IMG/VR virus record: IMGVR_UViG_3300030116_003579
Span: 1-45,287 of that record
DNA: 45,287 nucleotides
Strand: one strand, 5' to 3'
From: a virus
The position numbers and the translations under genes are program-made. This document shows positions 8,558 to 10,119 of the stretch, piece after piece. A model generated the notes under the pieces. That model was not told where the DNA came from and searched no databases. It saw only the letters and a list, made by a program, of their open reading frames with translations. Numbering within the stretch: the stretch's first letter is position 1; each line of letters opens with the position of its first letter.

Positions 8558-8614
8558 ATGCCAAAAGGAAAAGGAACGTATTCAAAACCAGGAAGACCAC
8601 CTAAGAAAAAATGA
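8558..8614 (+). CDS. 18-residue basic peptide, AT-hook-like
   Basis: A short ORF encodes MPKGKGTYSKPGRPPKKK. The GRP core flanked by Pro and Lys looks like an AT-hook minor-groove binding motif. Very similar short MPKGKGTYG...RGRPPKKK peptides occur, from memory, in other marine T7-like phages near the capsid gene, which suggests a real gene despite its size. It starts 4 bases after the scaffold stop and its end overlaps the hli start as ATGA. Confidence 0.65.
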   Translation: MPKGKGTYSKPGRPPKKK

Positions 8615-8799
8615 AAACTAAAGATTTAGAGAATCTTTTAAATTATTACCCTTACGAACCACCAATACAGGTGATAGAAAAGAAACCAATTATGACCCCA
8701 GAAGCAGAAAGATTTAATGGTTGGGCAGCAATGCTCGGCATAGTTGCAGCTCTAGGAGCTTACGCAACTACAGGACAAATTATTCCTGGAATATTTTAG
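8611..8799 (+). CDS. hli: High-light-inducible protein (Hli, chlorophyll-binding family)
   Basis: The 62-residue protein ends in one Hli-type transmembrane helix: PEAERFNGWAAMLGIVAALG (about residues 30-49), then AYATTGQIIPGIF. The E..N pair of the chlorophyll-binding helix is present; the residue after NG is Trp where many Hlis have Arg. Phage Hlis are thought to protect the host photosystem during infection. An internal ATG at 8692 would give a 35-residue form of typical minimal phage Hli size. The position between scaffold and capsid matches P-SSP7-type cyanophages, which also carry psbA there; psbA is missing here. Confidence 0.9.
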   Translation: MKTKDLENLLNYYPYEPPIQVIEKKPIMTPEAERFNGWAAMLGIVAALGAYATTGQIIPGIF

Positions 8800-8803
8800 A
8801 CAT

Positions 8804-8877
8804 AATCTTACGTTCATCCTTTTTAGGACGCATTTGTTTAGTCGGTGGAACGGACGCTAAACACTATTCTTAAGATT
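8804..8877 (+). ncRNA. Candidate glutamine-riboswitch-like RNA (glnA / Downstream-peptide topology)
   Basis: Four perfect helices can be drawn. P1 pairs CGTTC (8811-8815) with GAACG (8848-8852). P2 is a TCCT/AGGA hairpin (8817-8820 with 8825-8828, TTTT loop). A pseudoknot pairs GTTTAG (8836-8841) with CTAAAC (8857-8862). An outer helix pairs AATCTTA (8804-8810) with TAAGATT (8871-8877). The 5' block CGTTCATCC...GGACG and the 3' block GGAACG match my recollection of the glutamine riboswitch core, as does the crossing of P1 and P3. The internal loop usually written GGAAGUAGG is different here (CATTTGTTTAG), so ligand binding may be altered or lost. The outer helix ends directly at the ATG of the next ORF. 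Confidence 0.6.
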
Positions 8878-8931
8878 ATGCAAACTGTAAAACTCGTTTA
8901 TAGAGGTGTTGTATATTACATCTCACGTTAA
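8878..8931 (+). CDS. 17-residue YRG peptide downstream of the riboswitch-like RNA
   Basis: The ORF encodes MQTVKLVYRGVVYYISR. The KLxYRGxxY pattern is that of the N-terminus of DUF4278 proteins of cyanobacteria (the PirA-like family), which is often found in short ORFs behind glutamine riboswitches. That link is recalled and not checked. No Shine-Dalgarno sequence precedes the ATG, which abuts the outer helix of the RNA element. The stop codon (8929-8931) lies within the acceptor-like stem of the following tRNA-like structure. If translated, this would be a minimal riboswitch-controlled peptide. Confidence 0.55.
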   Translation: MQTVKLVYRGVVYYISR

Positions 8932-8969
8932 GTCTGGTGACATTTGGGAGGTTCGATTCCTCCCTTAAC
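8927..8969 (+). ncRNA. tRNA-like minihelix (acceptor stem plus T-arm, no anticodon arm)
   Basis: GTTAAG (8927-8932) pairs with CTTAAC (8964-8969). Stacked on it is a perfect T-stem GGAGG/CCTCC (8947-8951, 8959-8963) with a canonical seven-base T-loop TTCGATT. The two are joined by a 14-base single strand beginning TCTGG, reminiscent of the stem-less D-loop of tmRNA. There is no anticodon arm and no encoded CCA (the 3' side continues with A, then ATCA). The element overlaps the stop of the 17-codon ORF. It could act as an RNase P or RNase Z substrate, a tRNA mimic, or be the relic of a tRNA or tmRNA. Confidence 0.6.
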
Positions 8970-8980
8970 AATCAGCCCGA

Positions 8981-9064
8981 TCAGAGGCTTTGTATCTGAC
9001 AACCTTGCAAGGGAAAAAGTTAGGTCAACAAGATATAAATCAGTAGTAGGAGTAAGCCCTCTGA
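8981..9064 (+). ncRNA. Structured leader upstream of the capsid gene
   Basis: TCAGAGGCTT (8981-8990) pairs with AAG-C-CCTCTGA (9054-9064), ten pairs with one bulged C. It encloses about 63 bases that contain a self-complementary CCTTGCAAGG (9003-9012) and GTT...AAC. No ORF crosses it. It may be part of the capsid mRNA leader or a processed RNA. Confidence 0.4.
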
Positions 9065-9087
9065 GGAGGATAACTTTCGCTGAAAAG

Positions 9088-9112
9088 GATTAAGTCGTAA
9101 AGACCGTTAATC
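9088..9112 (+). promoter_or_regulatory. Hairpin in the capsid gene leader
   Basis: GATTAAGTC (9088-9096) pairs with GAC (9102-9104) and TTAATC (9107-9112), nine pairs with a two-base bulge, ending 20 bases before the capsid ATG. T7-type mRNAs carry RNase III-type hairpins in similar places. Here it could stabilise the capsid mRNA 5' end or set ribosome access. Confidence 0.45.
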
Positions 9113-9132
9113 AATCTTTCTCCTATTTAGAG

Positions 9133-10119
9133 ATGACAAATATAGCAAATCTCCATAGACCCAATGCGGTTAATGGAAACCAAAGTAATACCTACGCTAA
9201 TAAGTATGCGACAGCGTTAAAGCTGTTCTCTGGTGAGGTATTTACAGCATTTAATAGTGCTTCAATATTCCAGGGTCTTGTTAAGAGCTACACCCTAAGA
9301 GGTGGTAAGTCTAAGCAGTTCTTACTAACTGGAACATTAAGTGCTGGGTATCACACCCCTGGCACTCCAATACTAGGTGATACAGCATTGAAAGCTAATG
9401 AGAAGACAATCCTAATGGACGATCTCCTTGTAAGCTCTCAGTTCGTGTATGACTTAGATGAGGTTCTATCACAATATTCCACTAGATCTGAAATATCTAA
9501 GCAGATCGGTGAAGCTTTAGCAAAACACTACGATACTCGTATTGCTAAGGTTCTTGATATTGCTTCAAGAGAAGCTTCAGTAGTAACTGGTGAGCCTGGT
9601 GGCTTTGAAGTATCTATTGGTTCTGGAAACCAATTTAAAGCTCAGAAAATTGTTGATGGTTTATTTGAAGCCGCTGCAGTTTTAGACGAGCGTAATGCCC
9701 CTCAAGAGGGTCGTGTATGTGTATTAAGCCCAAGACAATACCTCGGCTTAATTGCAGCTGTAGACACAAATATCTTAAACAGAGAACTTGGTGCATCTCA
9801 AGGTGACATCAACTCTGGAAAAGGTTTATATAGCATTGCTGGTATCAAGCTTTATAAATCAAACAACCTTCCATTTATGGCTGCGTACAACACAGCGGTA
9901 ACTGGTGAGAACAACGACTATGCAGATGCAAACGCTACTTGCTGTGGTCTTGTGTTCCATCGTGAAGCTGCTGGTGTACTAACAGCTATTGGTCCTTCTA
10001 TTGAAACTACAAGTGGAGATTTCCATGTTCAATACCAAGGCGATTTGGTCGTAGGAAAGCTAGCTATGGGAGCATCTTCTTTAAGAGTTTCTGTTGCTGG
10101 TTCATTACAAGCACAATAA
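9133..10119 (+). CDS. Major capsid protein (T7 gp10-like)
   Basis: The 328-residue HK97-fold capsid protein has the marine T7-like pattern: SNTYANKYATALKLFSGEVF near the N-terminus, GGKSKQFLLTGTLSAGYHTPG, and ILMDDLLVSSQFVYDLDE around residues 94-111. The second half holds LSPRQYLGLIAAVDTNILNR and a C-terminus of strands (GVLTAIGPSIETTSGDFHVQ). Codon use is richer in C/G-ending codons than in its neighbours, as expected for the most highly expressed gene. It is preceded by a long structured leader and followed by a strong hairpin, so it can be expressed as its own unit. Confidence 0.96.
   Translation: MTNIANLHRPNAVNGNQSNTYANKYATALKLFSGEVFTAFNSASIFQGLVKSYTLRGGKSKQFLLTGTLSAGYHTPGTPILGDTALKANEKTILMDDLLVSSQFVYDLDEVLSQYSTRSEISKQIGEALAKHYDTRIAKVLDIASREASVVTGEPGGFEVSIGSGNQFKAQKIVDGLFEAAAVLDERNAPQEGRVCVLSPRQYLGLIAAVDTNILNRELGASQGDINSGKGLYSIAGIKLYKSNNLPFMAAYNTAVTGENNDYADANATCCGLVFHREAAGVLTAIGPSIETTSGDFHVQYQGDLVVGKLAMGASSLRVSVAGSLQAQ

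Follow-up and report, generated by a model that had tools for sequence, protein, structure and literature searches.

Type 2 glutamine riboswitches (Downstream-peptide RNAs; Glutamine-II, Rfam RF01704) bind glutamine and are ON, probably translational, switches for DUF4278 proteins, a ligand-stabilised pseudoknot competing with the structure that hides the ribosome site; both binding and ON switching have been published for host members only (PMC6316151, PMC6698751). According to a review, the class is confined to marine picocyanobacteria (PMC6316151). A Glutamine-II RNA from Prochlorococcus has been crystallised; in its structure the glutamine lies against C1, G18, C39 and G40, beside C19:G41, and the A33:G42 pair, reported to be 99.5% conserved, makes no contact with the ligand (PMC6698751). 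The glutamine riboswitches of T4-like cyanophages and of the methylophage Melnitz have been described as glnA-like (PMC9964418, PMC9004378). Two further systems are close to the locus analyzed here. Prochlorococcus yfr6 (strains MED4 and SS120) is a single small transcript that likewise joins a Downstream-peptide leader to a short ORF (PMC1242208, PMC2864571); it is a host gene of about 240 nt encoding 33 aa, not followed by a capsid gene, and a tRNA-like element has not been reported for it. Melnitz, also a marine phage, carries a glutamine riboswitch near a tRNA-like RNA, ssrA (PMC9004378), yet the riboswitch is of the glnA type and resides inside the 3' domain of a tmRNA made of two pieces, and the phage is an OM43 myovirus.

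The window, i.e. the whole stretch of 45,287 nt of virus DNA analyzed, was compared with all 4227 Rfam families, and Glutamine-II was the sole match, above its cut-off (E 1e-5; Table 1). The same element scores 19.8 bits with the glnA model RF01739, below the cut-off of 35, and assignment to the glnA class was dropped, although the CGUUCA...GGACG...GGAACG core is shared and the ligand given in the literature is the same. On its sequence, the element at 8808–8861 is a Downstream-peptide (type 2) glutamine riboswitch. An earlier note, made from the letters of the sequence, had proposed that the phage carries, in the hli-capsid interval, a glutamine aptamer belonging to the glnA/Downstream-peptide group, which is borne out by the Downstream-peptide model and not by the glnA model. 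The note had also regarded the lack of the conserved loop GGAAGUAGG as a deviation. That loop belongs to the glnA class; the element being of the Downstream-peptide class, its absence is no deviation.

The window element shares with Glutamine-II RNAs the sequence, the pseudoknot, the ligand-contact nucleotides and a short ORF of the YRG/DUF4278 type after the aptamer. It differs from host members in residing in a T7-like phage, between hli and the capsid gene, and in preceding a 17-aa single-repeat peptide, the host peptide having two repeats; further differences are a G:A pair in place of A33:G42, a bulged U in P3, and a start codon located within the outer helix. The aptamer begins a few bases past the hli stop codon (8799), and is therefore probably part of a polycistronic message; the major capsid gene starts 271 nt downstream, at 9133. 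A sigma-70 promoter or a terminator at the riboswitch was considered and dropped, promoter-like sites being in no excess (5 against an expected 6.8), and the stretch from the aptamer to the capsid gene having no terminator-like site.

Table 1. Features of the hli-capsid interval, with positions in the 45,287-nt window
Feature	Position	Strand	Basis or remark
hli, encoding a 62-aa high light inducible protein; adjacent, upstream	8611–8799	+	PHROG 178, E 4e-22
P0 5' strand CATAATCTTA, anti-start helix	8801–8810	+	10 bp with 8871–8880; pair probability 0.86–0.98, 25 C
Glutamine-II aptamer (Rfam match)	8808–8861	+	37.5 bits, cut-off 33
Pseudoknot (PK) helix, 5' strand CGTTC	8811–8815	+	pairs with GAACG 8848–8852
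C1, G2 (crystal numbering)	within 8811–8815	+	glutamine contacts, PMC6698751
Small hairpin TCCT 8817–8820 / AGGA 8825–8828 (crystal P1)	8817–8828	+	covariation
Linking strand CGCA	8829–8832	+	invariant in 71 sequences; crystal structure
G8830 = G18 (crystal equivalent), stacked on glutamine and bonded to it	8830	+	crystal structure
C8831 = C19, partner G8853 = G41	8831	+	crystal structure
P3 (crystal P2), 5' strand	8835–8845	+	partner 8854–8863; own sequence reading, covariation
GAACGG, PK 3' strand and G41 equivalent	8848–8853	+	at least 99% conserved in 71 sequences
P0 3' strand TAAGATTATG, start codon included	8871–8880	+	ATG unpaired probability 0.00–0.07, 25 C, nested fold
Regulated micro-ORF, 17 aa MQTVKLVYRGVVYYISR, YRGxxY / DUF4278-like	8878–8931	+	YRG peptide recurrence; pN/pS
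tRNA-like element	8927–8969	+	acceptor helix vs shuffled partners; only such hairpin in the window
Acceptor strand GTTAA (holds the peptide stop codon)	8927–8931	+	pairs with TTAAC 8965–8969
T-stem GGGAGG / CCTCCC	8946–8951 / 8959–8964	+	
T-loop TTCGATT	8952–8958	+	
D-loop-like CTGGTGA		+	
Conserved structured capsid leader	8970–9132	+	covariation in clade relatives; palindromes; no Rfam match
Leader hairpin CAGA/TCTG		+	
Leader palindrome CCTTGCAAGG	9003–9012	+	
Leader GCC-hairpin-GATAAC motif	9056–9074	+	
Leader long helix AGGAGTAAG/CTTTCTCCT		+	
Major capsid gene	9133–10119	+	PHROG 267 major head protein, E 2.8e-71

The four helices listed in the note (CGTTC/GAACG, TCCT/AGGA, the crossing GTTTAG/CTAAAC and the outer AATCTTA/TAAGATT) all reside where it had placed them. 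As MFE z-scores are weak (-1.35 and -1.15), the case for an RNA rests on comparison, and 71 phage and host aptamers were aligned. The pseudoknotted structure (17 pairs) is 94.3% paired in the alignment, against 81.7% after shuffling, and its covariation score, 0.376 vs. 0.134, was reached in none of 500 shuffles. The crossing helix P3, whose core is GTTTAG 8836–8841 / CTAAAC 8857–8862, is made up of 7 bp followed by the bulged U8842, C8843-G8856, G8844-C8855 and G8845.A8854; double changes occur at all 7 pairs, and the mean helix length falls from 7.5 to 4.9 bp when 3' strands are dealt among the sequences. In the small hairpin 97.5% of cells are paired, with double changes at three of the four pairs. 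The 5' strand of the PK helix does not vary, except for one compensatory change of C:G to T:A in phage SS120-1. PK helix and crossing P3, with their covariation, form the H-type pseudoknot typical of RF01704.

The outer helix is present and ends at an ATG, as described in the note, and is not a mere closing stem. Pairing extends beyond AATCTTA 8804–8810 / TAAGATT 8871–8877 to 10 bp (P0, 8801–8810/8871–8880), covering the ATG at 8878 and so burying the start of a conserved micro-ORF. In nested folding at 20–37 C P0 pair probabilities range from 0.84 to 0.98, and the ATG is almost never unpaired. In a close relative, L125, P0 is kept with different bases. Over 68 loci flanking pairing averages 5.06, against 4.36 in dealt controls (sd 0.12), and P0-type pairing masks a GGAG-type ribosome site in several of them. 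A strong P0 is found in only about a dozen of the 68 loci, and most P-SSP7-like phages have no long P0; these would need another platform, or switch differently.

A start codon enclosed in a 10-bp P0 fits the ON-type translational switch published for the class, and a model in which P0 is either closed or open is favoured. The phage is a T7-like cyanophage, and the riboswitch would act within its late transcript. When glutamine is lacking, P0 would stay closed, the ATG of the YRG peptide (17 residues) would be hidden and no peptide would be made; when glutamine is plentiful, the pseudoknot (8811–8815/8848–8852) would be stabilised, the fold rearranged and P0 opened, and the peptide translated. 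P0 and pseudoknot are presumably mutually exclusive (the linker is 7–8 nt long), and ON polarity is assumed by precedent. Judged from sequence comparison, it is highly probable that this type 2 riboswitch opens P0 on glutamine and so turns on translation of the YRG peptide; a sensing of host nitrogen status by the phage copy, as the note had proposed, may follow.

The 17-codon ORF, which directly follows the AATCTTA/TAAGATT helix, and the elements downstream from it are absent from the earlier note. A pattern scan of IMG/VR, which required the exact core, yielded at least 120 stretches. Among the matches listed from all loci retrieved, the aptamer is followed by an ATG-started frame encoding YRGxxY in 122 of 138 phage matches, a ratio that is not a population frequency; the invariance of YRG..Y is in part built into the search motif. 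The 16 matches without peptide include, where inspected, chance matches in GC-rich coding DNA, elements cut at contig ends and ORFs with GTG starts (L026, L087). Changes in 82 distinct nine-codon cores fall mostly at third positions, and pN/pS is 0.44 in frame, vs. 1.16 and 1.68 in the two alternative frames; by this measure the micro-ORF is coding, and under purifying selection in its frame only. As in RF01704 loci, the short ORF directly downstream (8878–8931) is of the YRG/DUF4278-like type. The comparison with Pfam DUF4278 (PF14105) was made on five longer phage homologues, the 17-aa window peptide being below scannable length: one scored 27 bits (cut-off 25.3), three 16–23, one did not match. 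Longer phage peptides (33–60 aa) also match PHROG 5049, annotated as of unknown function. Prochlorococcus host versions carry YRG and YRR in tandem, e.g. MTTLTYRGKNYVQNKEAAKKQLVELTYRRNVYTNRMDDAS. No solved structure of any YRG peptide was found; by analogy with its DUF4278 relatives, host nitrogen metabolism is the probable target of the peptide. Two loci are peculiar. A GC-rich phage contig (L049, 1322–1568) carries the aptamer and a longer peptide with two YRG motifs, similar to the tandem host form, with no capsid gene within the short stretch covered. In L015 the aptamer and a 13-aa YRG peptide follow a porin-like gene, no capsid gene is found within 4 kb, and the sequence may come from a host or from a different kind of phage.

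A T7-like capsid gene lies downstream, on the same strand, in 100 of the 121 phage loci that have both aptamer and peptide among the matches listed, a count that again depends on the exact core and is not a population frequency. Among the same matches, the capsid gene starts at a median distance of 235 nt past the peptide stop, at most at 1318 nt, and of the loci with 2 kb or more available only two are without it. Whole-record searches of 13 cyanopodovirus isolates detected Glutamine-II above cut-off in nine, SS120-1 and P-SSP7 included; S-SBP1 retains half of the element, and none above cut-off was found in S-CBP42, Syn5 and P60, so that the riboswitch is not essential. By blastn the P-SSP7 element matched P-SSP2, P-SSP3, P-GSP1, 9515-10a, NATL2A-133, P-SSP6, P-SSP10, NATL1A-7, S-TIP28, S-TIP37, S-RIP1, S-RIP2, KBS-P-1A, S-CBP1, S-CBP4 and others, all podoviruses of about 42–48 kb except for fosmid fragments and three weak halovirus matches. 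The literature search, which covered freely accessible papers, found no paper on cyanophage capsid leaders or podovirus Downstream-peptide RNAs. The riboswitch family is known; within the same limits, its fixed site before cyanopodovirus capsid genes was met in no paper.

The slot past the peptide stop codon is occupied by a T-arm-like hairpin in 86 of 160 loci and by a hairpin with loop CACCTCAGAGTCGGA in 59, both being found in two. In loci of the T-arm type an acceptor-like helix stacks directly on the T-arm; its mean length is 4.78 bp, against 2.95 with dealt partners (sd 0.33, maximum 3.91, 300 deals). The same loci also carry a D-loop-like CTGGTG or a mini-hairpin containing the peptide stop codon. 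Relatives with a tRNA-like element overlapping the peptide stop, or with a real tRNA in its place, include L003, L053, L122, L140 and L331. In the other hairpin the loop CACCTCAGAGTCGGA is strongly conserved (e.g. L001, L004, L078, L096), and this hairpin is nearly mutually exclusive with the tRNA-like element. Real tRNAs in the slot are a tRNA-Trp in L140 and an annotated tRNA-Gly in NATL1A-7; tRNA-Gly-like sequences not called by ARAGORN reside in L040, L057 and L117. In the window ARAGORN found no tRNA or tmRNA, and the Rfam tRNA-Sec model scores 13.3 bits at 8927–8969 (cut-off 47). A tRNA or tmRNA gene was thus rejected, the sequence being tRNA-like only; in having no tmRNA the window differs from Melnitz. 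An attachment site corresponding to a host tRNA end is disfavoured, since attachment requires identity and here acceptor pairs compensate and the T-loop changes across phages. The natural reading is that of a tRNA degenerated into a putative processing signal; located between peptide and capsid, it is a possible processing site separating the two messages.

Past this slot come 120–180 nt of conserved, structured sequence, whose hairpins covary in the clade of the window; in the window this stretch corresponds to the capsid leader, for which Rfam has no match. The motif GCC-[short hairpin]-GAYAMC is found also in the P-SSP7-like clade. Enclosed by a covarying helix, and often with a UACG loop, it recurs in the capsid leaders of distant cyanopodoviruses. 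Perfect palindromes of at least 10 nt were detected in 96 of 97 non-redundant leaders and in every leader clade (mean length 11.9, vs. 7.1 in dinucleotide shuffles), and are of 33 different sequences. Palindromes that diverge in sequence yet stay self-complementary point to pairing of one transcript with another, as a duplex or loop to loop, or else to a dyad acting at the DNA level. The tRNA-like element and the palindromic leader are apparently undescribed.

These features leave some room, about one chance in four, for the riboswitch mainly tuning the capsid, opening or translation of the peptide ORF altering the folding or stability of the leader and hence capsid output. The position of aptamer and peptide, fixed ahead of the capsid gene among the matches listed, the conserved structured leader in between, and the peptide stop codon contained in the tRNA-like acceptor helix all suit such a role, which is nonetheless unlikely: purifying selection acts on the peptide itself, whole genes separate peptide from capsid in some phages, a tRNA-like element or real tRNA would, if processed, split the two messages, and S-CBP42 keeps the capsid leader without the riboswitch. 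A composite 5' region common to the capsid messages of T7-like cyanophages can tentatively be proposed, with a glutamine-gated micro-ORF, a degenerate tRNA cut by RNase P/RNase Z and a self-complementary hairpin leader. The cut by host tRNA-maturing enzymes would part the message for the nitrogen-controlled peptide from that for the capsid, and through the leader hairpins one transcript may pair with another.

The residues equivalent to C1, G2, G18, C19, C39, G40 and G41 (8811, 8812, 8830, 8831, 8851, 8852 and 8853) are all unchanged, and from this conservation of the pocket, together with family membership, both observed, we infer that the RNA binds glutamine. In the window four positions that are otherwise conserved to at least 96% deviate from the consensus, and they form two pairs: 8844-8855 is G-C, the consensus being C-G, with the same swap in L015, and 8845:8854 is G:A, the consensus being A:G in 69 of 71 sequences, with the same swap in L125. 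G8845:A8854 corresponds to the A33:G42 pair of the crystal numbering, at the PK/P2 border. The earlier note had suggested a changed ligand or a decayed copy, and neither is supported, the bases contacting glutamine being kept and the odd positions being compensatory swaps, which argue for a working RNA. That a host-derived copy has decayed and lost glutamine binding is improbable: the four departures, and a score of 37.5 bits, below those of P-SSP7 (48.1) and NATL1A-7 (59.2), would fit decay, but the departures form two compensatory pairs, one common to L125, ligand contacts, peptide frame and P0 are all intact, and P0 pairing survives with other bases in L125. A Glutamine-II-like variant with a different ligand, to which the A33:G42 to G:A swap bordering the binding helix might point, is the least credible of all, as C1, G18, C39, G40 and C19:G41, which bond glutamine, are unaltered, and A33:G42 has no ligand contact in the published structure.

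The riboswitch is a phage member of a known family carrying a natural compensatory variant; with the G:A swap, nature provides a compensatory mutant at an almost invariant pair of an RNA whose structure has been solved. The tRNA-like element and the palindromic leader may be the more novel part, and are worth following along with the fixed coupling of the riboswitch to a micropeptide ahead of cyanopodovirus capsid genes. In this T7-like virus of marine cyanobacteria the riboswitch seemingly governs a peptide of 17 residues encoded shortly before the capsid gene and, the same arrangement being found in most related cyanophages examined, phages with the riboswitch seem to read the nitrogen state of the host. 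P-SSP7 and its Prochlorococcus host are both cultured, which makes the question testable now. A riboswitch and a selected micropeptide before the capsid gene in most T7-like cyanophages examined would imply that late genes are gated by host glutamine in some of the abundant viruses of the ocean.
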